IMG/VR virus record: IMGVR_UViG_3300031951_001419
Location: 1 to 21,206 of that record
Origin: a virus
DNA: 21,206 bases
Reading direction: 5' to 3' (one strand)
Numbering within the stretch: position 1 is the first letter of the stretch; every line of letters begins with the position of its first letter. This document shows positions 1 to 14,013 of this stretch, piece after piece. Both the position numbers and the translations under genes were made by a program. The notes beneath the pieces are model-generated. The model was not told where the DNA came from, did no database searches, and saw only the letters and a list, made by a program, of their open reading frames with translations.

Positions 1-1
1 T

Positions 2-508
2 TCATTTTTTTAATTTGTATGCGATAGTAACTCTTAAATCAGTGAAGTTTTTAGATGGTGACTTACCACAGTGTAACCAGTTAGATGGGAACATTATAGC
101 ACTATTTGGCATTGGATGTATAGTGCTTATCACACCATCAGGATCAAGAATGACCGTTTCACCACCCCAGGATAAATTCCAATTTCTCATTGGGTAATAA
201 AGAAAAGTATATGCATTATCATCTTGATCATCGATATGGAATTCACCATCCAACCCAAATGTTTGACCATTTGCATAGACTCTCTCAATAGAAAGATCTT
301 CACCAATATGAGTTTTGATTTTTGAGAATAGATCCTCAGTGAAAAAAGAATGATCCTCTAGATTCATGTACCAGAAAAAATTCTTAGAGTCTGGATTACT
401 CAAGTGCCAGAACTCCCAATTAGGTTGGGTCAAATAATTCCAAATATTATCTACTTGCTTTTTATCAAATATATCAAGGTATTGACTAATCACGTTGTCT
501 CCAATCAT
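2..508 (-). CDS. 2OG-Fe(II) oxygenase, prolyl-4-hydroxylase-like
   Basis: Predicted non-heme iron, 2-oxoglutarate-dependent dioxygenase of 168 aa. The visible catalytic pattern is H91-x-D93 (in GEFHIDD), a distal H146 (in NWLHCG) and R159 (in DLRVTIAY), matching the HxD...H iron triad and the 2OG-binding Arg that follows it. The GGETVI strand at about residues 115-120 and the PNSAIMFPS segment at 135-142 fit the double-stranded beta-helix core. The ATG lies inside the preceding gene with a 23-nt overlap, suggesting translational coupling; no clear Shine-Dalgarno is seen. The stop TGA lies at the window edge, so the gene is complete. Such oxygenases are frequent in cyanomyoviruses; the substrate (protein residue, nucleobase or small molecule) cannot be told from sequence. 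Confidence 0.85.
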   Translation of the reverse strand: MIGDNVISQYLDIFDKKQVDNIWNYLTQPNWEFWHLSNPDSKNFFWYMNLEDHSFFTEDLFSKIKTHIGEDLSIERVYANGQTFGLDGEFHIDDQDDNAYTFLYYPMRNWNLSWGGETVILDPDGVISTIHPMPNSAIMFPSNWLHCGKSPSKNFTDLRVTIAYKLKK

Positions 509-806
509 CTGGTTTATCTTCTGCCCACCAGTCTACCATATCATCGACACTTTCAAAACTTCTTTTACCGAAACGTTCGTGTCCAGTGCCACCGATGTCA
601 AGTTGATTCAAAAAATCGTCTAGATCTCCTTCTTGCATATCAGGATTTTCTGCTTTTCTTCTTGCCTGACGAAGTATTGTTGCTGCTGATCGATTTACTT
701 TGGCAAGTTTTTCTGCCCAAATCATATCTTCTAAACTTACTTCTTTACCCCCTACAATGTTTTCACATATTGATTCAAGACGTAGGCGATATTGTGTCGA
801 AAGCAT
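486..806 (-). CDS. Conserved-type cyanophage hypothetical protein, 106 aa
   Basis: Small soluble, charged protein. The N-terminal half (residues 1-55) is predicted helical and rich in Arg/Lys/Glu, including the stretch RQARRKAENPDMQEGD. The C-terminus is acidic and tryptophan-rich and ends in KPDDWRQRD. I recall very similar proteins in cyanomyoviruses but no assigned function, and I see no catalytic motif. A GGAG ribosome binding site (813-816) sits 6 nt before the ATG, and a late-promoter-like octamer lies at 827-834. The 3' end overlaps the oxygenase start by 23 nt, so the two are probably co-translated. Confidence 0.8.
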   Translation of the reverse strand: MLSTQYRLRLESICENIVGGKEVSLEDMIWAEKLAKVNRSAATILRQARRKAENPDMQEGDLDDFLNQLDIGGTGHERFGKRSFESVDDMVDWWAEDKPDDWRQRD

Positions 807-812
807 ATCATT

Positions 813-816
813 CTCC
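813..816 (-). promoter_or_regulatory. Shine-Dalgarno GGAG for the 106-aa gene
   Basis: Minus-strand GGAG lies 6 nt before the ATG at 806. It supports that start over internal alternatives. Confidence 0.6.
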
Positions 817-825
817 AGATATAAC

Positions 826-1065
826 TTATTTATTTTTGGATTCTAACTCCTTCATCAACTCTTTGGCAAGTCTATTTGATCTTCTCCACATAGAATATCT
901 TGCCCATGGTGTTTTTGGATTATGAATTGCCCACCAACGAAAGATTGCAAATTGATTCTGTATAATTTTTGTAATATAAAAGAATGCTTTTGCAATACTT
1001 TCGTCTGTGACAATCAAATAGGCGACACAGGAAAAGATAATCAGATAGACATACTGTGTGGTCAT
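826..1065 (-). CDS. Small predicted membrane protein, 79 aa
   Basis: The N-terminus is hydrophobic (about residues 5-19, YVYLIIFSCVAYLIV), consistent with one membrane-spanning helix. It is followed by an aromatic and basic middle (FRWWAIHNPKTPWARY, about residues 42-57) and a basic amphipathic C-terminal helix rich in Arg, Lys and Glu. No enzymatic motif is visible. A cytoplasmic-membrane location is inferred from the N-terminal helix. The ATG overlaps the stop of the 56-aa gene before it (ATGA), indicating translational coupling within an operon. I recall proteins with this architecture in cyanomyoviruses, without a known role. Confidence 0.75.
   Translation of the reverse strand: MTTQYVYLIIFSCVAYLIVTDESIAKAFFYITKIIQNQFAIFRWWAIHNPKTPWARYSMWRRSNRLAKELMKELESKNK
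827..834 (-). promoter_or_regulatory. Late-promoter-like octamer AATAAATA
   Basis: The minus strand reads AATAAATA, one mismatch from the T4 late consensus TATAAATA, 20 nt before the ATG at 806. It overlaps the TAA stop (826-828) of the upstream gene. Such AT-rich octamers can occur by chance, so confidence is moderate, but the placement repeats at several structural genes in this window. Confidence 0.4.
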
Positions 1066-1232
1066 CGCCTTATTGTTTTGAGGTATTCCAGAACATGCTC
1101 ACGAACATCCATCAGTTCATTATAGCACTTCTGGTTGTGAGCACATTGCCTTAGTTCATGGTCTGGTTTGTGTACACTTTCGATAAACAAGTCCAATCCT
1201 CGATTCCACTTAACGTCAGGTGTTTCGTCCAT
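1062..1232 (-). CDS. Hypothetical protein, 56 aa
   Basis: The ORF reads MDETPDVKWNRGLDLF... and ends ...LEYLKTIRR. It is supported by its ATGA overlap with the next gene and by the lack of any other reading frame filling this gap between two tightly packed genes. The protein is predicted all-helical and has two cysteines (C30, C36) with a nearby His (H32), which could bind metal, but this is speculative. No Shine-Dalgarno is apparent; a short palindrome (TACAAT-gtg-ATTGTA) lies just before the start. Function unknown. Confidence 0.7.
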   Translation of the reverse strand: MDETPDVKWNRGLDLFIESVHKPDHELRQCAHNQKCYNELMDVREHVLEYLKTIRR

Positions 1233-1236
1233 AATC

Positions 1237-1251
1237 TACAATGTGATTGTA
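1237..1251. repeat. Short palindrome before the 56-aa gene
   Basis: Perfect 6-bp inverted repeat TACAAT / ATTGTA with a 3-nt spacer, ending 4 nt before the ATG at 1232 and in the position a ribosome binding site would take. It could be a small RNA hairpin or an operator; it could also be chance. Confidence 0.35.
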
Positions 1252-1255
1252 CTAT

Positions 1256-1489
1256 TTAACCAAAAAATTGATCGACAGTTGTACTTGCTTTTTTAGATGC
1301 CTTAATCTGCTTTAGGATATAAGATTTGGCAGCCGTGTAATTACTAGCAGTATGAACTTGCTGCCCATTATGAATGATAATGAATTTTTTACCCGTCCAA
1401 GGGACAGCAGCCCACATACCATCTTTGGTTACATAACCATTAGGATCTCCAGGTACATTATTCAAAATGCCTTCGTTTTGAATGTTCAT
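1256..1489 (-). CDS. Hypothetical protein, 77 aa
   Basis: A small protein with a probable beta-rich centre (GYVTKDGMWAAVPWTGKKF, roughly residues 18-36, then IIIHNGQQVHTA) and a helical basic C-terminus (YTAAKSYILKQIKASKK). The centre reads like a small beta-sheet domain with a motif for displaying or binding a ligand, but no family is recognised. The ATG overlaps the TGA of the 45-aa gene before it (ATGA), so it is likely translated by re-initiation. It belongs to the same compact unit of small genes that ends with the oxygenase. Confidence 0.75.
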   Translation of the reverse strand: MNIQNEGILNNVPGDPNGYVTKDGMWAAVPWTGKKFIIIHNGQQVHTASNYTAAKSYILKQIKASKKASTTVDQFFG

Positions 1490-1623
1490 ACCGCAGTCAC
1501 ACTGACAACTTTAGCAGTTGGATTTCGTGCCAGAGCAGTACGCTTAGCATCCTGATAATCCCGTGCTTCGACGTGCTCATAGAACACTTTACCAGCAACA
1601 TACAATTCAACTTTGCAACGCAT
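1486..1623 (-). CDS. Hypothetical protein, 45 aa
   Basis: The ORF begins MRCKVELYVAGKVFYEHVEA and ends ...AKVVSVTAV. It has a strong Shine-Dalgarno (AAGGAG, followed 7 nt later by the ATG) and a stop that overlaps the next start (ATGA). The predicted fold is beta-strand, helix (ARDYQDAKRTALAR), beta-strand, a plausible complete mini-domain. I recall near-identical short proteins in many cyanomyoviruses, function unknown. It is probably transcribed with the nuclease-like gene just upstream, whose stop is 17 nt before this start. Confidence 0.8.
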   Translation of the reverse strand: MRCKVELYVAGKVFYEHVEARDYQDAKRTALARNPTAKVVSVTAV

Positions 1624-1630
1624 TGGTTTT

Positions 1631-1636
1631 CTCCTT
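1631..1636 (-). promoter_or_regulatory. Shine-Dalgarno AAGGAG for the 45-aa gene
   Basis: The minus strand reads AAGGAG, then AAAACCA, then ATG. This is one of the best ribosome binding sites in the early-type region and supports the 45-aa gene as real. Confidence 0.65.
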
Positions 1637-1640
1637 AATA

Positions 1641-2198
1641 TCAAAAATTGAGATGATTATCGATTGCAGATTGAATCTGCTCAGAAAGTTGTGTTGGGGG
1701 AAGAATGGGAGTTACTTCACCGATGTCACACTTGTAGTAATCACCAAGACCAAACTTGGCAAACACTCCATCACCATCAGCAAAATAACGACTCCGTGCC
1801 ACATCATCCTCAACAACAATGACTTGATAAGTCGTGAGGCATAGAACGATTGCAACGTCGAAGGTTTGATCGTTCTTGAAGTCTTCCAGAGTCTTTTTGT
1901 TACCCTGAAAGTTCTTCATCTTTATGACTTGAGTTTGGTGTGGTGTGCGTTTGTAGAACAGATTTTGACGCATTTTCAATTCTACTTTCAAACCACCATA
2001 CACAAAGTCATATCCAATTTGATCAACACGTTCCAAGTCAGAAAACTTGGCAAGTGCCTTTTCAATTGTAGTTGATTTTGTAAAGTTGTCTGCCCTAGAG
2101 GTGAATCCAGAATCATCGTAGGTAGAACGAACAACTCCAAAAACTTTGTTCCAGTTGACACCTGTTTCTAGGTGATCAATGAGATTTGCGATTGTCAT
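1641..2198 (-). CDS. PD-(D/E)XK nuclease-like protein next to SF2 helicase
   Basis: I place the start at the ATG at 2198 (185 aa, MTIANLIDHLETG...). An in-frame TTG at 2261 would add 21 residues, but that TTG is the first three bases of a perfect -35 box, so it would lie upstream of the transcript. The centre has D64 (in QIGYDFVYGG), then E73-L-K75 (in LKVELKMRQN) on the next strand, and a following helix/strand with basic residues (QVIKMKN). This spacing fits the core of PD-(D/E)XK restriction/repair nucleases. It follows a DEAH helicase gene, suggesting a helicase-nuclease pair. A family cannot be named by eye; a non-catalytic DNA-binding protein remains possible. Confidence 0.6.
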   Translation of the reverse strand: MTIANLIDHLETGVNWNKVFGVVRSTYDDSGFTSRADNFTKSTTIEKALAKFSDLERVDQIGYDFVYGGLKVELKMRQNLFYKRTPHQTQVIKMKNFQGNKKTLEDFKNDQTFDVAIVLCLTTYQVIVVEDDVARSRYFADGDGVFAKFGLGDYYKCDIGEVTPILPPTQLSEQIQSAIDNHLNF

Positions 2199-2232
2199 AA
2201 TTGAACTAACTCTGTTAGTATCGAACGGGTCT

Positions 2233-2261
2233 ATTATAAAAGAAAGTGGTTGGTTTGTCAA
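2233..2261 (-). promoter_or_regulatory. Consensus sigma-70 promoter, nuclease-like gene
   Basis: Minus strand: TTGACA (2256-2261), exactly 17 nt, then TATAAT (2233-2238), a perfect match to the sigma-70 consensus. The -35 box starts 4 nt after the helicase stop (2266-2268). The expected transcription start near 2226 gives a leader of about 28 nt to the ATG at 2198. It would serve the nuclease-like gene and the small genes downstream, as an early promoter read by the host polymerase. Confidence 0.85.
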
Positions 2262-2265
2262 GGGG

Positions 2266-3501
2266 TCACCGACGAACGATGCTCACTGCCACGTCACCCT
2301 GCTTGAAGATGATGTCAACCACGTTCTGAACGGACTTGGCAGTGGCACCAGATGCCTTGTCAAAGGTCGGGCAGATCACCAGACCATAGGATTTGGTGTA
2401 CGATGCCAGATCACCTGCCTGAAGGGCACCAGAACGGATTCCAGCAGCATCTGAGGGGTGCAGACGCAGTGTACGTCCGACCGTCTGACCGATGCCCACA
2501 ACGTCCATAGAACGCATGAATACAACTGCCTCCAGTGCCGAAATGTTGATGCCTTCGGCAAGGATACTATGATGAAGAACCACAAACTTCTTGTCAGCAT
2601 CCTTACCCCATGCATTCAGAGTGTCAAAGAACACCTCACGGTTGACCTTCTGACCATCAATGAATGCACCGTGCTTAGCAGTAATGTGCATCACAGAATA
2701 ACCCTCTTCGGCAAGTTGATCGGCAAAGTCAGTTTGAGACAGCAAACCAATAATGTGCTTGGTTGCCTTCGCACAAATCAGAATCTTGTTGACAGGATTC
2801 TCAGAAATCACCTGCAGCAGATACTCACAGTCACGTTGAGCAATATCCTCACCCTTGACAGACAGACGCATTTGAGTTGCAATCACCTTAGGAGGAATGA
2901 TATAACCATTCTCCACCAGTTCGGGTGCAGGAACCTTAGCAATGATGCTACCGTAGACTGCAGTATCATTCATACCAGGTTTAGAAATCGTGGCAGAATA
3001 CTTCGGAGTTGCAGTAAAAAAGTAGCAACGATTTGCTTCCTGAGAGAAGTGCTCAACAGCAGGAAAGAAATCACGACGAACAGAATTGTGTGCTTCATCA
3101 AAATAAATGGTATTCACATTGATGTCTGCCTTGGCAATCTGCTGCAGAGAATTGTAGGTCGTAAAGATCAGTTTGTGACCTTGAGTTTGCTCTACCCAAG
3201 TACGAATCACATTCGGACGAGTGCTGCTGAAGTGGTGCGTCTCACCAGTGTGCACGTGCAGAACACGGGCATTGGTGATAAACTCAAGATACTCGGAAGA
3301 AAGTTGCTCTGCCAGAAGAATGCGTGGTGCCACAACTACAATCGTCTGAGCAGTTTCTTTCAGAAACTCTTGAATCGCATCGAAAATACCCACATTGGTC
3401 TTCCCACCACCAGTCGGAAACACACAGATACCCTTGTCATTCTGACGCAGTGCATCCAGAGCAATCTGCTGGTGAGGTCGGAGTTGAATCACAGGTCTCA
3501 T
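2266..3501 (-). CDS. SF2 DEAD/DEAH-box helicase, restriction-helicase-like
   Basis: ATP-dependent DNA translocase/helicase of 411 aa. Motifs in order: RPHQ near residues 8-11; Walker A TGGGKT at 30-35; motif Ia APR at 58-60; DEAH at 135-138; motif III TAT at 163-165; a second RecA-like domain with ICAKATKHI (about 242-250) and the SILAEGINI segment (312-320); and motif VI GQTVGRTLR at 338-346. The order and compact size resemble restriction-type (ResIII/type III R) helicase cores and T4 UvsW, but no extra nuclease or target-recognition domain is present. A PD-(D/E)XK-like protein follows. Base composition is richer in G+C than the fibre genes beside it. A role in recombination, host DNA degradation or exclusion of other DNA is inference. 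Confidence 0.85.
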   Translation of the reverse strand: MRPVIQLRPHQQIALDALRQNDKGICVFPTGGGKTNVGIFDAIQEFLKETAQTIVVVAPRILLAEQLSSEYLEFITNARVLHVHTGETHHFSSTRPNVIRTWVEQTQGHKLIFTTYNSLQQIAKADINVNTIYFDEAHNSVRRDFFPAVEHFSQEANRCYFFTATPKYSATISKPGMNDTAVYGSIIAKVPAPELVENGYIIPPKVIATQMRLSVKGEDIAQRDCEYLLQVISENPVNKILICAKATKHIIGLLSQTDFADQLAEEGYSVMHITAKHGAFIDGQKVNREVFFDTLNAWGKDADKKFVVLHHSILAEGINISALEAVVFMRSMDVVGIGQTVGRTLRLHPSDAAGIRSGALQAGDLASYTKSYGLVICPTFDKASGATAKSVQNVVDIIFKQGDVAVSIVRR

Positions 3502-3514
3502 TGCGTATGAAACT

Positions 3515-3522
3515 ATTATAGC
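3515..3522 (-). promoter_or_regulatory. Possible extended -10 element before the helicase
   Basis: The minus strand reads TGC-TATAAT ending 13 nt before the ATG at 3501. There is no good -35 box at 17 nt, but TGn-TATAAT can act as an extended -10. It lies immediately after the hairpin at 3527-3557. A start here would leave a leader of only about 7 nt. Confidence 0.4.
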
Positions 3523-3526
3523 AGAA

Positions 3527-3557
3527 AACCGTCCCTGGTGCGACCCAGTGGACGGTT
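3527..3557 (-). terminator. Hairpin after the fibre genes, candidate terminator
   Basis: AACCGTCC pairs with GGACGGTT (8 bp), and inside it CTGG pairs with CCAG, with one bulged T and a 6-nt loop. On the minus strand it is followed by TTCTGC (four T in all counting the stem end), a weak U-tract. It could end the late fibre transcript or attenuate transcription into the helicase gene from the promoter at 3600-3628. Confidence 0.5.
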
Positions 3558-3599
3558 CTTAAAGTGGCTCAGACTCTCATCTTCAACCAGGACAAAGGT

Positions 3600-3628
3600 A
3601 GTCTATAGGGTTTTTATGAAGTTGTCAA
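3600..3628 (-). promoter_or_regulatory. Sigma-70-like promoter for the helicase
   Basis: Minus strand: TTGACA (3623-3628), 17 nt, TAGACT (3600-3605), the latter matching 4 of 6 of the -10 consensus. The -35 box begins 3 nt after the stop of the 955-aa fibre gene, the same arrangement as the promoter at 2233-2261. Its transcript would carry the hairpin at 3527-3557 in a leader of about 90 nt. Confidence 0.55.
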
Positions 3629-3631
3629 GTG

Positions 3632-6499
3632 TTATACTGCGGTTGTAATACCGAACCAGTTACCTTTTAGTCTGACTTCTAATCTGTCTGTTGTTGAATT
3701 ATAAATGATTGCTCCACTCTGAATACCAGCAGTTGTCATAGTATTACGTTGAGTGGTTGTCATTGTTGGTGGAACAAATGCGCCAAATCCACTGTGATTA
3801 TTTGTATATGTCGCAACACCACAGAAAGTTGTTGCAGCAACAGCAACTTTTAACTGAGATGCAGTTATGTCATAAACAATTCCACCAGATGTAAGTCCAT
3901 CTGGTGTTGCTAAGTTTGCTCTAGCATGTCCTGCCCAATTTCCAGCACTAGGACCAGCAACATTAGGGTTCCACAATTGACTTACATAGTAAATATCTGA
4001 CGTTGATAATCTTGGTGGTATAAAGTAAGAGCTATTTGCACTATTGCCATATCCAACATCAAATGTAGATCTAATGTATAGTGTATTAAATCCAACTTTA
4101 CATAGATTATTATTGATAAATTGTAGACCCATTCCAATATTTTGTGCTCCAGTTAAACCTGGCCAATTTCCTGTTTCACTAGATGCAAGTGAAGGATGAA
4201 CTGCAATATAATCTTGAGAAATGATGTTAATGCCACCAGATCTTATTTGTATATCACCATAACCAGAGAATGGGAGAATGCCATTATTTGGAATAGTTGT
4301 TTGATAGTTTGCTAATAAAGTTTGATTTCTAGGATCAAAAAATCCTGTCGTTACACCAGCAACATAATCATAATAAATTTTTGACGTAGCAAATCCAAGA
4401 TCGGCATTTCTTAAAGTTGCTGGGCTGTAAATGTTTAATGGACTTGCAAAACCAGATGTTCCAATATTAACTCCACCAAAGAATGTAGTAATACCAATAA
4501 AAGATGAGACACCAGTTGCATTAAATGTACTTGTAACTTTTAACTGATTAAATGTTGATAATCCAGATTGAGTGTTAAAGTTTTGAGTTGTTGAGAATGT
4601 AGATAAACCAGTAACTGTGATGTTAGAGAATGTTGAAAGACCTGCATTTATACCAGCATCTAAGTCTAATCTACCTCTAATTTTGGTATTACCATTCACC
4701 ATCAATGAATATTGAGTGTCTGTTAATAATGGAACACTTTCATTGATAGACACTCTGCCGTCATAATTTAGATTTAATAATACTTTCGCATCAGAACCAG
4801 TTTTGAAGAAATATCCTCCAGTTTGAGTTCCAACTACAGCACCATTTCCTTTGTGAGTATGGAAATTAACTTCCCCAGAACCGTTATTATCAAGGTCTAA
4901 AACTTGTGTAAGTGGATTATATCTAATTCTCGCAGTGTTATTTCCACCCAATGCTTGTGAACCAAGACCGATATTTGCACTTCCTTGTTTAGAAATAACT
5001 TCTAATGTGGTTGTAGCATCTTTTACGATTGCAAAATCAGAGGTAAAGGTATCAGTTCCGACTCCAAGAGTTTCTACTCTAATCTTGTTTAGAGTCGTTA
5101 TACCAACAGATCGATTAAGGTTAGAAGTAATTAAATCTGGTAATCTCGCATCATTAATTGTTCCAGTTGTAATATTTGCACCATCGTAAAGATTTAAGGC
5201 AGTAGTTGCAATACCAACTAATCTTCCATCAAATCGTATTGCAGTTACAATGCCACTACTACCATTTAATGATATGGCATTACCTACGTCAAGTTCTGCA
5301 CTAATCGTTGTAAATCCAGTAACATTTAACTGCTGAGTTGTAGTTACACCTGAGATTTGAGCATTATTTGCTACTCTAATATTTCCTAATGTATCAATAA
5401 AGAATAATTCATTATCAGAACCTGAAAAATAATTTGAGAAGTAGTAAGAAGATGTACCACTTACACCTGCTCTAAAATATTGAGTAGTCCCTACTTGTTG
5501 AATGTTTCCTGTATTATTAAATTGTATTTGACCTGGTGTAATATAAGTTCTTGATGTACTACTTAAAACATCAACTGAACCAGCATTTCCTGCAGATGAA
5601 CTACCAAAAATTCCAGCTGGTGCTGCTCCAGTAACAGTTAATGCATTGGATTCAAGTCTTCCAAAAACTGTTGCACCATAACCTGTGGTTTCAAATTCTT
5701 TGCTATTATCATAATATAGTGCAACTGATCCATCTTGAGTGATTGTAATTGCAGTTTCTGCGGCAAATCCAGATGCTCCAGTAGCAAAAGTATAATCTTT
5801 GGCACGAATATAAAAATCAGTATTTGTTCCACTAAACTCATTACGGGTGGAACCGGAATTATAGTATAATTTTGCTGTCTGGGATGAACCACCAAGTATT
5901 AAACCCGTAGATGCAAGATTATATTCACCTAAAATAACATCACTTTGGAAAGTAGAAAGACCCGTTACTGTTAAGTTTGTTGCACCAATTCCACCTCTAA
6001 CATCTAATGTTCTTGTCGTAACTGTTGTACCAATACCAACATTACCGTTAAAACCAATCAAAAATGCAGTTGAACCAACACCAACTTGTAAAGGACCCAA
6101 TGAAACGGGTAAAACTCCATCAGTAAAAGGCCCTTGATAAATGTTAAATGATGTTGAGAGTGTTCCAGCATTTTTTACCCAACCATCAGTGGCAATCGCA
6201 ATGACATTTGCTAGTAAAGCACCATCACCACGGTAGGAAACTGCACTAATAATTCCAGTCGTTGGGTTAAAAAATACACTACTCCCAACAGTAACTAAAG
6301 ATTGAAATGTAGATGCCGATGATACTCTTAGTAATGTTGATTCTAGTAATCCATTAACTCTCGCAGTACCATAAACATCTAGGGGTCTGTTTGGTGCCGA
6401 CGTTCCGACACCAACATTTCCTCTTCCATCTACAAGGAACTTATCATTATCAACCTGTACACCACTTCTGAAATTAAAAGACTTCCTATAATTTGCCAT
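3632..6499 (-). CDS. Large tail fibre-like virion protein, 955 aa
   Basis: Long, repetitive, beta-rich protein low in Cys and rich in Gly, Thr, Ser and Asn, typical of trimeric phage fibres. It has NVGVGTSAPNRPLDVYG at residues 28-44 and NVGIGTTVTTRTLDVRG at 153-169, each a glycine loop followed by a beta-strand. Many LTVTGLSTFQ-like units recur, for example 176-185 and several later. The C-terminus has the PPTMTTTQRNTM...GAIIYNSTTDRLEVRLKGNW pattern seen at the ends of many fibre proteins. No S74 chaperone domain is present, unlike the adjacent 2008-aa protein, with which it shares the VGIGT repeats. The start is the ATG 17 nt after a GATAAATA octamer. Receptor binding or whisker function is inferred. 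Confidence 0.8.
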   Translation of the reverse strand: MANYRKSFNFRSGVQVDNDKFLVDGRGNVGVGTSAPNRPLDVYGTARVNGLLESTLLRVSSASTFQSLVTVGSSVFFNPTTGIISAVSYRGDGALLANVIAIATDGWVKNAGTLSTSFNIYQGPFTDGVLPVSLGPLQVGVGSTAFLIGFNGNVGIGTTVTTRTLDVRGGIGATNLTVTGLSTFQSDVILGEYNLASTGLILGGSSQTAKLYYNSGSTRNEFSGTNTDFYIRAKDYTFATGASGFAAETAITITQDGSVALYYDNSKEFETTGYGATVFGRLESNALTVTGAAPAGIFGSSSAGNAGSVDVLSSTSRTYITPGQIQFNNTGNIQQVGTTQYFRAGVSGTSSYYFSNYFSGSDNELFFIDTLGNIRVANNAQISGVTTTQQLNVTGFTTISAELDVGNAISLNGSSGIVTAIRFDGRLVGIATTALNLYDGANITTGTINDARLPDLITSNLNRSVGITTLNKIRVETLGVGTDTFTSDFAIVKDATTTLEVISKQGSANIGLGSQALGGNNTARIRYNPLTQVLDLDNNGSGEVNFHTHKGNGAVVGTQTGGYFFKTGSDAKVLLNLNYDGRVSINESVPLLTDTQYSLMVNGNTKIRGRLDLDAGINAGLSTFSNITVTGLSTFSTTQNFNTQSGLSTFNQLKVTSTFNATGVSSFIGITTFFGGVNIGTSGFASPLNIYSPATLRNADLGFATSKIYYDYVAGVTTGFFDPRNQTLLANYQTTIPNNGILPFSGYGDIQIRSGGINIISQDYIAVHPSLASSETGNWPGLTGAQNIGMGLQFINNNLCKVGFNTLYIRSTFDVGYGNSANSSYFIPPRLSTSDIYYVSQLWNPNVAGPSAGNWAGHARANLATPDGLTSGGIVYDITASQLKVAVAATTFCGVATYTNNHSGFGAFVPPTMTTTQRNTMTTAGIQSGAIIYNSTTDRLEVRLKGNWFGITTAV

Positions 6500-6515
6500 C
6501 TTCTATGGTTTTTAG

Positions 6516-9500
6516 TTATTTATCTTGTAATTTTTGCTCTAGTTTTTCAACCTTTGCAGTTAACTCTTTAATTGATTCAATAAGAAGTGGAACTAACTTA
6601 TGGTAATCAACTGCAAGATAACCATTATCTCTTTCAATCACCGCTTCTGGTAGAACTGCTTGAATCTCTTGTGCGATTACACCAACATCATTACCTTCTT
6701 TGCCAGATTGTTCGTTCCAAGTATAAGTATTACCACTAATTGAGATAACTTTAGCAAGAGGATCATTAATTGGAGTAATGTTATCCTTTAATCTTTGGTC
6801 AGAAGTATAGAATGCTGTAATATCACCAGTTACTCTTAATTCACCGTCAACAGTTGCAACAGAACTGGTCATTGTCAAGATATCATTATATGTTCCACCA
6901 GAATCTTTAACATTGAATGCTATTGATCCACTATTTGTGGTGTTGTAAATACCAAATATTCCATCACCACCACCATTACTACCAATATCACCAACACCAA
7001 TTCCAGTAGTTGTGTGAGTTAAACTTAAACTATCTGCAGCAAGTGATCCAGCAATTAATGCAGTTCCTTGAACGTGTAATTTATTATTAATAGTTGCGGT
7101 TCCAATACCAAGATCACCATCACCATCGAGGATCATTTGATCCACATTATTCATTCTGAATCTAATATTTTTAGTAGATGGTCTATTAATATAGAGATCA
7201 GTATCACCTACTCTTGAAATGAAATTATAATCATTATCAGAAGTGCTGCCATTTAAAGTAATACCATTATATCCAGCATAAACCTCACCGATTCTGACAA
7301 ATCCCAATCCACCTTTAACATCTAATTGTTCTTGTGGGGATGTTGATCCCACACCGACATTACCACCACCTGTAATTGTGATAGTAGGATCTGTAGTATC
7401 TTGGTGACGAGCAGTAAGTTGAAGTTTATTGTCTGCTGTAGTTCCGTCTGCTCCAGCATCAAAGTAAATTGAACCTTTGTTTCCGATACTACCATTATCA
7501 GATCTTGCCATAAATGACAGAGATGCTGGTTCACCAACACTAATGTTTTCAATTAAACCAATTTCATCATTGGCAATATGAGTATGTGCGGCAAAGATGT
7601 GGAATCTCTTTGTTGGATTCGTGGTTCCGATGCCAACATTTTGATTAATAATTAGATTCTTAGAAATTGCGGCGCCACCAGCAACACTTAAAGCAGAAGA
7701 TGTGCTTCCAAAACCAACTGCCTGATTAGTGCTAGTTGAGTTAATAACACCAAATGTTACGTTATTTGCAACTAAATTATTGGCAGTTAATGTGCCACCA
7801 ATACTTACATTCTTTGCAATACCAACACCACCTGTAACCACCAAAGCACCACTGGTAGTAGAAGTAGAATCAGTTTCATCTCTAACTGTAAGAAGGTGTC
7901 TGATTAAGACTGGTGCAGTAAAGTTAGTTTCCCCATTAATGTTAAGTGGTCCATCAAATTGAGAAAGAACGGTATTTGAACTACCACCTTCAACAACAAT
8001 TCTTTCTTTTACAGTAACTTCATCAAATACAACACTTAATCTTGATGCATTTTCACCAGTAATTGTTGGTGTTGGAATATCATAAGTAACAATTACCCCA
8101 CTTGCAGCAGATGACTTAGAGTTTCCTTGGAAAGAGTCACCTCTGTTGTTCATACCAGTATAAACAACAATACCACCTCTCTTCTCCTGAGATTGTGCAA
8201 GGAATTCTTCTCTTTCGGATAGAGATCTAATTTGAACTTGTGGTAAACCTGTTGAGTAGTTTCCAGGTCCATAACCAAGATATTCAAATGTATGACCCGA
8301 AGCTCTCATTGTCGTGGGTCTACGAATCTCCAGAGGAACTGGATCGATTTTTCTAATAATTGATCCAACATCATGAGATACTTTTCTCGTAGCAAGAGAA
8401 CCACGTAGAACCGTAATTTCATCATTATTTGTTCCACCAAGAGTGTTACTTGCCACTCTCATGATTTCATCATCAATTTGAATGTAAGACCCGTAAGAGA
8501 ATCTTGATGTCGTTCCTATTCCAGGGGAAGGTACACTAATTCTAATTCTTGTGTCATCAGTAAATCCAACAACATAAGCTACCTCCTTATCAAGAATGAA
8601 GGTTGATCTTGTGCTTAGATTTTCTAGTGTTGAGTCTGATGAACCATCATTTGATGCAAAACCATGCTTTAATGCAAACGATGCCGTAGTAATTCCTGAA
8701 GTAAGAACATTAAATGTGTTGACACCAACTCTTGAATTGACAAAATAGTCTCCAAGATTATTATTACTGCTATCAAGAAGTCTAATCTTATTCCCTGCTA
8801 CCAGACCATGAGCAGATGAACAAGTAAACGTTGTGATTCCTGCACTTGCATTTGATGCTAATGAAGTTATCGAAGCAGAAAGACCAGTTAATAGTAAATA
8901 TTGACCGACTAATGGGGTTGGATCTCCAGCAGTTCTGGCAATTGCAATTCTATTTGGTGCTGGAATACTGGTGATGCGATAATAACCATCTGCGGTAGTG
9001 CCAATACCAGTTGTTTGAATGACTTGTCCTAATGATGTTGAAATTCCACCAGCAGTAAGATCCAACGATACATTAGTTTGAGCACCATTATTACCAATTA
9101 CACTTTCATCTAATTGATATGTTCCAGTTGTATATCCTGAACCAGGGTTAGTAATTTGAACGGAAGATACATTTGTGCTGCTGTTAACAACAACGGTTGC
9201 AGTTGCACCTTGCCAAGTATTTGTTATAGTACCATCTTTTAGAACCTTAACGTTGTAATATGTTCCGGTTTGATACCCAACACCACCAGTAGTAATGCCA
9301 ACAGAAATAATACCACCAAATCCATGGTTTCTATCAAAACTTAAAGTCGCAATTCCAGTAGAACTTGTAACAGTGGTAATACCTAAACCAAATCCAAAAG
9401 ACTTAGCAAACTTATCAGTTGTTTCTCTAGTTAAACTATGCTTTTGATCATTTGTAACAACTTTACCTAGAGGTGTTCTTAATGCATATGATTTTGTCGA

Positions 9501-13043: not shown

Positions 13044-13116
13044 TGCTGGTTGTCGGGATCGAACCGACCTGTCTTGCCTTATGAGGGCAGTGCTTTCGCC
13101 AGAGAGCTAAACCAGC
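13044..13116 (-). tRNA. tRNA with CAU anticodon (elongator Met or Ile2)
   Basis: 73 nt. Acceptor GCTGGTT pairs with AACCAGC, discriminator A. Anticodon loop CTCATAA (anticodon CAT) on a stem with four pairs and a C-A mismatch at its base. T-arm GTCGG-TTCGATC-CCGAC. The G1-C72 pair argues against an initiator tRNA. Whether it is elongator Met or Ile2 (C34 modified to lysidine, reading AUA) cannot be decided by eye. CCA not encoded. Its first base is the last base of the HNH gene stop codon. Confidence 0.88.
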
Positions 13117-13493
13117 TATTTTATATTCAACGCTCGATAAGTAGGAGTTAATGAATGACAGTTAGGGCATAATACTCGAAGATTGTCTTTACTAGCATTC
13201 TTCCTATTACCATCAATGTGGTCGATTTCTAGTGTTGTATTTCCAGAAACTGGATTGACACCTGCCCAACTACATTGAGAGCATTTGTATCCTGCTTCTT
13301 CTAGCAAATGTCTTCTAACATAACCAGAGAGTGAATTACCCCTTATTATACCAGATTTTGTGCCATTCAACCATTCAGTGATATATTCACGATCTTGGTT
13401 GTCTTGCTGACATTTACGAGAACAGTATTTACCTGTCGATTGTGACGGCATATACTTAAAGTTTTTTTCACAAGATAAACACTTACCAATCAT
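13116..13493 (-). CDS. HNH homing-type endonuclease, 125 aa
   Basis: N-terminal zinc-finger-like cysteines C5, C8, C24 and C28, then a linker and an HNH domain: C71/C74 (CSQC), the core LEIDHIDGNRKNASKDNLRVLC with D91-H92, and C109-x-x-C112-H113 (CPNCHS). The four later cysteines fit the zinc-stabilised HNH type. It is probably a DNA endonuclease that nicks or cuts double-stranded DNA. It lies inside a tRNA cluster, a common insertion place for free-standing phage homing endonucleases. The stop TAG shares its G with tRNA-Met/Ile2. A late promoter in a hairpin loop lies directly upstream, suggesting tight expression control. Confidence 0.9.
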   Translation of the reverse strand: MIGKCLSCEKNFKYMPSQSTGKYCSRKCQQDNQDREYITEWLNGTKSGIIRGNSLSGYVRRHLLEEAGYKCSQCSWAGVNPVSGNTTLEIDHIDGNRKNASKDNLRVLCPNCHSLTPTYRALNIK

Positions 13494-13815: not shown

Positions 13816-14013
13816 TCAGAGAGGATTGGAATATGCAAGACAATCATCACTGACTTGATCACGAACAACTTCTAGTACATTCATGAATTGATCTACGGTC
13901 TCACACTCCACAACTCGTTCGTTACCTTCACTCGAATACAAATAGAACTTACGTGCCAAAGTATCGACAACACAACGACTCAGGATTTCTTCGGTGGGCA
14001 TTGGGTGATTCAT
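13816..14013 (-). CDS. Hypothetical early protein, 65 aa (or 61 aa)
   Basis: Small acidic protein with one cysteine in each half (C14, C36 and C58). The sequence MPTEEILSRCVVDTLARKFYLYSSEGNERVVECETVDQFMNVLEVVRD suggests strand-strand-helix with a basic, aromatic centre. I recall similar proteins in cyanomyoviruses, function unknown. A consensus promoter at 14028-14056 would place the transcription start about 8 nt before the first ATG (14013) and 20 nt before the second (14001, MPTEE...), so the second may be the real start. No Shine-Dalgarno distinguishes them. It leads the unit that continues into the antitoxin-like gene. Confidence 0.7.
   Translation of the reverse strand: MNHPMPTEEILSRCVVDTLARKFYLYSSEGNERVVECETVDQFMNVLEVVRDQVSDDCLAYSNPL

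Follow-up and report, generated by a model that had tools for sequence, protein, structure and literature searches.

A predicted restriction-fold nuclease gene beside a helicase gene in T4-like cyanophages: partner or exchangeable cargo

Do neighbouring helicase and nuclease genes in a cyanophage encode one enzyme split in two, or is the nuclease gene independent of the helicase gene? This question is raised by the virus record IMGVR_UViG_3300031951_001419 from IMG/VR, the whole of which (21,206 bases; the window) was analysed. By content, the window is a T4-like cyanophage fragment because it holds tail-type genes, three transfer RNA (tRNA) genes and genes of phage families. Its minus strand encodes an SF2 helicase of 411 amino acids (HEL) followed by a protein of 185 amino acids (REN), both where an earlier reading of the letters (the original prediction) had put them. 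In that reading, the two genes were taken as a split restriction-type pair. The data reported here suggest a different arrangement, in which REN has a predicted PD-(D/E)XK restriction-endonuclease fold with invariant putative catalytic residues and occupies a slot 3' of HEL in which it is exchanged independently of HEL.

Fold, active site and distribution of REN

REN is very probably a nuclease of the PD-(D/E)XK restriction fold. AlphaFold2, supplied with 58 aligned sequences, returned a model with a predicted local distance difference test score (pLDDT) of 93.0 and a predicted template-modelling score of 0.88, and this model has the PD-(D/E)XK fold that the original prediction had anticipated. 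In a Foldseek search of the PDB, all six matches under E 0.001 were chains of NhoI (E 1.6e-4), followed in order by Eco15I, DpnI, NaeI and 3ndh, which we take to be ThaI. VIA-align 2 gave NaeI Z 10.8 (154 aligned residues, root-mean-square deviation (rmsd) 6.8), 3ndh Z 9.6 (166 aligned, rmsd 3.9), DpnI Z 8.9, Eco15I Z 8.7 and NhoI Z 8.3. Lower in the list, where a Z under 8 possibly reflects a mere common arrangement, stand I-Ssp6803I (Z 6.4; 114 aligned, rmsd 3.9), the unrelated human protein Rep15 (also Z 6.4), SwaI (6.1), PvuII (6.0), Hjc (6.0; 92 aligned, rmsd 3.0) and RecU (5.3). The model supports the fold class well, while the nearest enzyme within the class is not settled.

The D...ExK pattern on which the original prediction had relied is present as D64-x8-E73-L-K75 and is conserved in relatives; its spacing presumably resembles that of D86, D95 and K97 in NaeI. 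Such a string by itself says little in a protein of 185 residues, and its weight comes from the predicted fold together with the invariance of E46, D59, D64, E73, K75, K93 and K95 in 127 of 127 distinct relatives. REN thus has two features of the PD-(D/E)XK superfamily, the predicted core fold and the invariant residues E46, D64, E73 and K75. The protein very probably starts at the ATG at 2198 and not at the TTG at 2261, because a stop lies shortly before that ATG in a close relative (L015).

Profile and sequence searches with REN found no match in Pfam or PHROGs, only IniB_NTERM in NCBIfam (0.012) and only MTase_I in PADLOC (0.0066). Against the PDB, a sequence search gave none and a profile search only DHFR (1.3), and a Pfam scan of 14 relatives gave scattered matches (best 0.049). 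None of 292 pattern matches in genome contigs was confirmed, and plasmids gave one match at E 0.7. In the phage collection, REN was found only in S-SCSM1 (two records, 54.9% identical, annotated as hypothetical), and a query from another branch of the family (REN of L081) recovered the same two records. By contrast, REN is common in IMG/VR, where one scan confirmed 178 relatives, 80 of which were kept. The full set of 212 matching loci was reduced by removal of duplicates to 148 loci, 139 of them full length, with 127 distinct proteins. A copy of the window (L001) and two loci with internal stops (L027 and L028) were left out; the latter two are one 66-kb contig with two REN-like and two HEL-like stretches, all broken across frames and with HEL downstream of REN, and the assembly of this contig seems to be chimeric or rich in errors. 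A search of one open-access library found neither the REN family nor the slot 3' of HEL named, and we do not claim that either is unpublished.

REN, HEL and the cargo slot

HEL is an SF2 helicase with all core motifs (P29-T-G-G-G-K-T35, D135-E-A-H138, T163-A-T165 and Q339-TVGRTLR346) and without a nuclease domain, as originally read. Its Pfam matches are ResIII (3.1e-19, residues 5-167) and Helicase_C (3.1e-5, residues 226-347), with no nuclease family among them, and the SF2 motifs and the family profile (5.4e-58) place it in phrog_16. It counts as a second family member, as each of the three genomes searched (S-SCSM1 and two IMG/VR records) carries, besides HEL (1e-60 to 1e-66), a longer phrog_16 helicase with a better match (E about 1e-120), presumably UvsW. 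In one of the three, the longer match has two internal stops. HEL matched 450 records of the phage collection (E 1e-5; Synechococcus 334, Cyanophage 61, Streptococcus 24, Prochlorococcus 18 and few others), part of which may hold a related helicase and not HEL itself.

A split pair should show consistent co-occurrence and joint evolution of the two genes, and neither was found. The conserved co-occurrence named in the original prediction holds in one direction only: in 111 of 148 REN loci, HEL is encoded upstream of REN in the same orientation, but REN is matched in only two of the 450 HEL-matching records, both S-SCSM1. As for joint evolution, DNA identity between two closely related loci, L024 and L025, is mostly 95-100% across HEL as far as the start of REN, with one 60-base step at 80%. 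It falls to 42-72% within REN and is back at 97-100% right after the REN stop, and other divergent patches start about 130 nt downstream. The entire REN open reading frame (ORF) thus differs at one site, as after exchange. Conversely, seven loci with a REN 86-94% identical to that of the window have a HEL only 53-83% identical (53-63% in five of them), and in four loci with REN at 86-88%, HEL is at only 53-61%. These HEL values compare with 48-64% in the 96 loci with a REN under 65% identical to that of the window. Over 103 loci, the window's near copy L002 having been removed as a duplicate, the identities of REN and HEL show a modest rank correlation of 0.39. A HEL-REN pair is therefore unlikely.

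REN does lie near HEL. HEL is present in the available DNA at 114 of 148 REN loci. Where it is upstream in the same orientation (111 loci), it is separated from REN by a median of 123 nt, and by at most 500 nt in 82 of these loci. HEL ends within 500 nt in 64 of the 116 REN loci for which 1,800 nt or more of upstream DNA is available and is found within 4,000 nt in 54 of the 66 for which 5,300 nt or more is available. This nearness is real but not fixed, because 10 of the 148 loci have no HEL match in at least 5 kb upstream and the gap in S-SCSM1 is about 10.2 kb. The apparent reason for this nearness is that the gap 3' of HEL serves as a cargo slot. In the window, the slot and its surroundings are arranged as follows:

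1256 to 1489, minus strand: backbone gene of 77 amino acids, cl0 family, next after cl1.
1486 to 1623, minus strand: cl1, a backbone ORF of 45 amino acids that begins ATGCGTTGCAAAGTT; it stands directly after HEL where the slot is empty and forms the downstream edge of the slot.
1641 to 2198, minus strand: REN, 185 amino acids, predicted PD-(D/E)XK restriction-endonuclease fold, with E46, D64 and E73-x-K75 as presumed catalytic residues; motif class KNFQG (95-99) with GDGV (142-145).
2205 to 2219, minus strand: ACTAAC-AGA-GTTAGT, a perfect inverted repeat located six bases ahead of the REN start codon, found in the window's REN clade only.
2233 to 2261, minus strand: match to a sigma-70-type promoter at 12 of 12 positions, between HEL and REN.
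2266 to 3501, minus strand: HEL, SF2 (phrog_16) helicase of 411 amino acids without a nuclease domain.

To follow the slot from the side of HEL, we compiled 91 HEL loci (79 new ones, L011, the window and ten stretches from isolates), with the new ones taken from the best 80 of 593 confirmed. The 86 loci with at least 600 nt after HEL were examined, a sample that leans to window-like HELs and includes near-duplicates. The first ORF after HEL is cl1 (mostly 45-47 amino acids) in 30 loci and cl0 in 19, and in an empty slot cl1 starts within 150 nt of HEL. The slot is filled by REN in the window, L011 and L285 (there as the second ORF), by the cl11 family in L240, L262, L283 and S-SM1, and in other loci by methylase-like genes (cl6 and cl15, the latter called by motif and similarity only), genes that by eye are oxygenase-like, or proteins without assignment. 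In L240, a PF01555 methylase (2.6e-29) follows cl11, and the methylase of L271 matched NCBIfam methylase models below their cut-offs. A further family, cl9 (176-210 amino acids), is the first ORF in 7 of the 86 loci, including L103 (4698-5330) and L266 (5340-5867), and the L266 protein has no Pfam match. Slot proteins of L271, L299, L272, L280 and L260 that by eye are PD-(D/E)XK-like had no PADLOC match and none in Pfam save weak ones of L299 to NOV_C (0.0034) and RmuC (0.005); PDB sequence searches with those of L272, L260 and L299 gave nothing meaningful, so that a likeness of the L272 protein to EcoRI, seen by eye, was dropped.

Among isolates, a helicase gene the size of HEL in S-RIM2 is directly preceded by an adenine methylase, P-TIM68 has methylases upstream of HEL, Bellamy has a DNA methyltransferase downstream, S-SM2 carries upstream of HEL a gene annotated as a type II restriction enzyme, and in ACG-2014f an HNH gene lies near HEL on the opposite strand. 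Next to HEL in S-SKS1, S-T4, SynMITS9220M01 and S-CAM7, no such nuclease or methylase is annotated, save a gene after HEL in S-T4 annotated as DNA endonuclease V, which by eye is also oxygenase-like. The window has a similar case at 2-508 (minus strand), labelled DNA endonuclease V by PHROGs (phrog_274) and 2OG-Fe(II) oxygenase by Pfam and NCBIfam, and this label is possibly a spreading mislabel.

The cl11 family may be a second nuclease family of the slot, and it probably shares descent with REN. Its member in S-SM1, SSM1_072, begins 2 bases after HEL. A cl11 profile (L262, L240, L283, S-SM1 and L222) matched the REN profile in hhalign at E 3.3e-4 with a probability of 38%, with E46, D64 and ExK aligned at 23% identity, and SSM1_072 alone matched REN at E 0.088. 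The BFVD model E3SI79 from S-SM1 (170 amino acids) overlaps REN with a template-modelling score of 0.65 at 16% identity; E3SI79 is probably SSM1_072, because phage and length are the same. Thus, cl11 is like REN in a weak profile match and in its place directly after HEL, while identity is low. In L136, a cl11-family match and a REN gene lie about 300 nt apart (3760-5103).

The order in the window is TATAAT, leader, REN, cl1. The promoter match before REN (TTGACA-17-TATAAT, 2261-2233) agrees with one of the two early-type promoters of the original prediction, but inspection by eye of the DNA before HEL showed only TGCTATAAT (3515-3523), which lacks a good -35. In positions 1-6700, 17 promoter-like matches were found as against a shuffle mean of 20.6, i.e. 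no excess. In the 16 empty-slot gaps between HEL and cl1 that were examined, TATAAT occurs in 8 and TATACT in 2. The promoter before REN is probably part of the backbone, because the elements that flank REN in the window, TATAAT and mostly also the start of cl1, are found together in empty slots. The leader ACTAACNNAGTTAGT stands just before the REN ATG in 15 of 29 loci examined (one of them the window copy), all of the window's REN clade, and further upstream the DNA of these 15 is mostly unrelated; a DNA search of the phage collection with the leader region gave no match. The inverted repeat in the leader may act as an operator, or it may fold in the RNA into a hairpin around the ribosome-binding site. 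It was not seen in other REN clades, and we rejected a family-wide operator because the palindrome is confined to the window's clade.

Elsewhere in the window, an HNH endonuclease gene (13116-13493, minus strand) has tRNA-Met on one side and tRNA-Ile on the other and is possibly a homing gene in a tRNA cluster, and a gene of 65 amino acids (13816-14013, minus strand) matches Pfam DUF7294 (E 3e-20) and phrog_662.

Proposed function and competing explanations

We suggest a model in which REN would be a small sequence-specific endonuclease for double-strand DNA with the PD-(D/E)XK restriction fold, encoded by an exchangeable cargo gene that T4-like cyanophages carry between HEL and the backbone genes cl1/cl0. 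Transcription of REN would probably start from the promoter already lying between HEL and cl1. REN would act in a type II-like manner without an adjacent methylase, cutting the DNA of competing phages and/or the host, and the phage's own DNA could be protected by a methylase encoded elsewhere, by modification or by a lack of sites. On balance, we regard it as probable that REN is such a type II-like cargo endonuclease directed against rival-phage and/or host DNA. Attack on the host or exclusion of other phages, roles that the original prediction had listed for the pair, are plausible for REN alone.

Specificity is suggested by two classes of REN. KSFLS at 95-99 goes with GADGA at 141-145 in 99 of 127 proteins, and KNFQG or KNFYG at 95-99 with GDGV or GDGI at 142-145 in the other 28; the linkage holds in 127 of 127, without a mixture. 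In a tree built without the motif columns, the class changes three times on well-supported branches, and in 3 of 3 independent pairs both segments switch together. These two linked classes may correspond to two specificities, with the residues at 95-99 and 142-145 possibly reading DNA.

Methylases were found near some REN genes. In one clade, REN is directly followed by an SPPY methylase, e.g. in L168 (PF01555, E 2.2e-55; PADLOC MTase_II, 1e-106). An adjacent methylase as proof of a type II system was nevertheless set aside and remains a hint, as the control shows that neighbourhoods of HEL generally hold methylases. Within 300 nt, a methylase is present in 17 of 128 REN loci versus 4 of 76 REN-less HEL loci (p 0.094), and within 1 kb in 19 of 109 versus 13 of 70 (p 0.84); all these counts are lower bounds because the search seeds came from the same loci. 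In the larger records, PF01555 was found in 2 of 13 (not S-SCSM1), PF02086 in 2 of 14 (one being S-SCSM1) and PF00145 in 0 of 14. The D12 methylase of S-SCSM1 is related (62%) to the methylase near HEL in L081; because it is placed among replication genes, it does not count as evidence of a cognate partner of REN. As for avoidance of sites, a few 6-mers are rarer in groups with REN. Among these, observed over expected counts of CACGTG are 6/22 and 8/94 in two groups with REN versus 32/63 in controls, and those of TTCGAA are 13/43 and 17/128 versus 26/56, figures in which related loci were pooled and 80 words examined, uncorrected for relatedness or number of tests. GTCGAC, GACGTC and GCATGC are strongly avoided by REN carriers and controls alike.

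Several observations weigh against the proposed model. Methylases are not clearly enriched near REN, and 11 of the 18 loci that in another count had a methylase within 300 nt match one type, so that the 18 are not independent. The window, which at 21 kb is possibly a fragment, has no match to PF01555, PF02086 or PF00145. Most 6-mer palindromes avoided by REN carriers are also avoided by controls. Three class switches cannot be significant (sign test, p 0.25), and exchange of one tract of about 50 residues explains the linked switches as well as co-adaptation does. Finally, the hhalign probability of the cl11 match is low, and AlphaFold2 gave SSM1_072, with 3 close sequences, a pLDDT of only 39.7, a model that was not used for a fold search.

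A wider version of the model is tentative: the gap 3' of HEL could be a weapons slot, in which lytic T4-like cyanophages swap sequence-specific nucleases, accompanied by methylases or not, for use against each other, and REN could be an undescribed restriction family with at least two specificities that arise by concerted replacement of 95-99 and 142-145.

The main rival is that REN is a free-standing homing endonuclease. It would cleave relatives that lack REN close to the gap between HEL and cl1 and would spread through recombination, in the manner of the homing enzyme I-Ssp6803I or of free-standing homing genes in phages. This would explain that REN passes from lineage to lineage, its boundaries being sharp in the close relatives, that it is mostly found in one slot for which empty sites exist, and that mostly no methylase was found near it; also, I-Ssp6803I is among the structural matches. 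However, the site varies, as in the 10 loci without HEL in at least 5 kb upstream and in S-SCSM1, methylases and other genes occupy the same slot, and the linked motif classes and the allele difference at an occupied site better suit a changing specificity. Moreover, restriction endonucleases outrank I-Ssp6803I, the Z of which equals that of Rep15. We consider homing unlikely.

It is less likely still that REN is a nuclease with little sequence specificity, either a structure-specific recombination nuclease of the Holliday-junction resolvase kind or one that scavenges host DNA. T4-like phages degrade host DNA, and Hjc and RecU are in the structural list, but lower than NaeI and 3ndh; in addition, REN is accessory and rare in isolates, and its two motif classes suggest that it reads sequence. 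Least of all do we expect HEL and REN to be a split motor-nuclease of the restriction or AddAB-like kind, as originally proposed: HEL ends at most 500 nt upstream on the same strand in 82 of 148 REN loci, ResIII is its best Pfam match and the identities are modestly correlated, but 448 of 450 HEL-matching records lack a REN match, different REN alleles stand beside near-identical HELs and similar RENs beside dissimilar ones, the genes are 10 kb apart in S-SCSM1, REN by itself gives a confident model, and in other phages the slot is empty or otherwise filled.

The REN family is common among uncultured cyanophages (148 non-redundant loci) and is represented by a single phage in the phage collection. 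Since this phage, S-SCSM1, possesses REN, a direct test is possible, and the two motif classes offer a ready-made experiment on specificity.

Comparison with known systems

HEL shares its family profile with the phrog_16 helicases of the T4 UvsW type and differs from them as a second, shorter gene of the family. REN shares its predicted fold with type II and related restriction endonucleases (NaeI, 3ndh, DpnI, NhoI, Eco15I, SwaI, PvuII and EcoRV), over most of its length with NaeI and 3ndh and in the core with the others, and the D-x8-E-x-K pattern is common to them. Unlike the known enzymes, it has no detectable sequence similarity to solved chains and no methylase match in the window. With I-Ssp6803I, a bacterial PD-(D/E)XK homing endonuclease, REN has the fold core and the behaviour of a mobile gene in common; it differs in being free-standing, in its varied places, in its alternative motif classes and in sometimes having a methylase neighbour, and the match is weaker than those to restriction endonucleases.

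Viruses are also known to carry restriction systems. According to passages of one article, those of chloroviruses act against host DNA and those of marseilleviruses against rival viruses (PMC7253447). Those virus-encoded restriction endonucleases have identified methylases and tested activity, and REN resembles them in its proposed role. Both systems are precedents for viral restriction directed against host DNA or rival viruses (PMC7253447).

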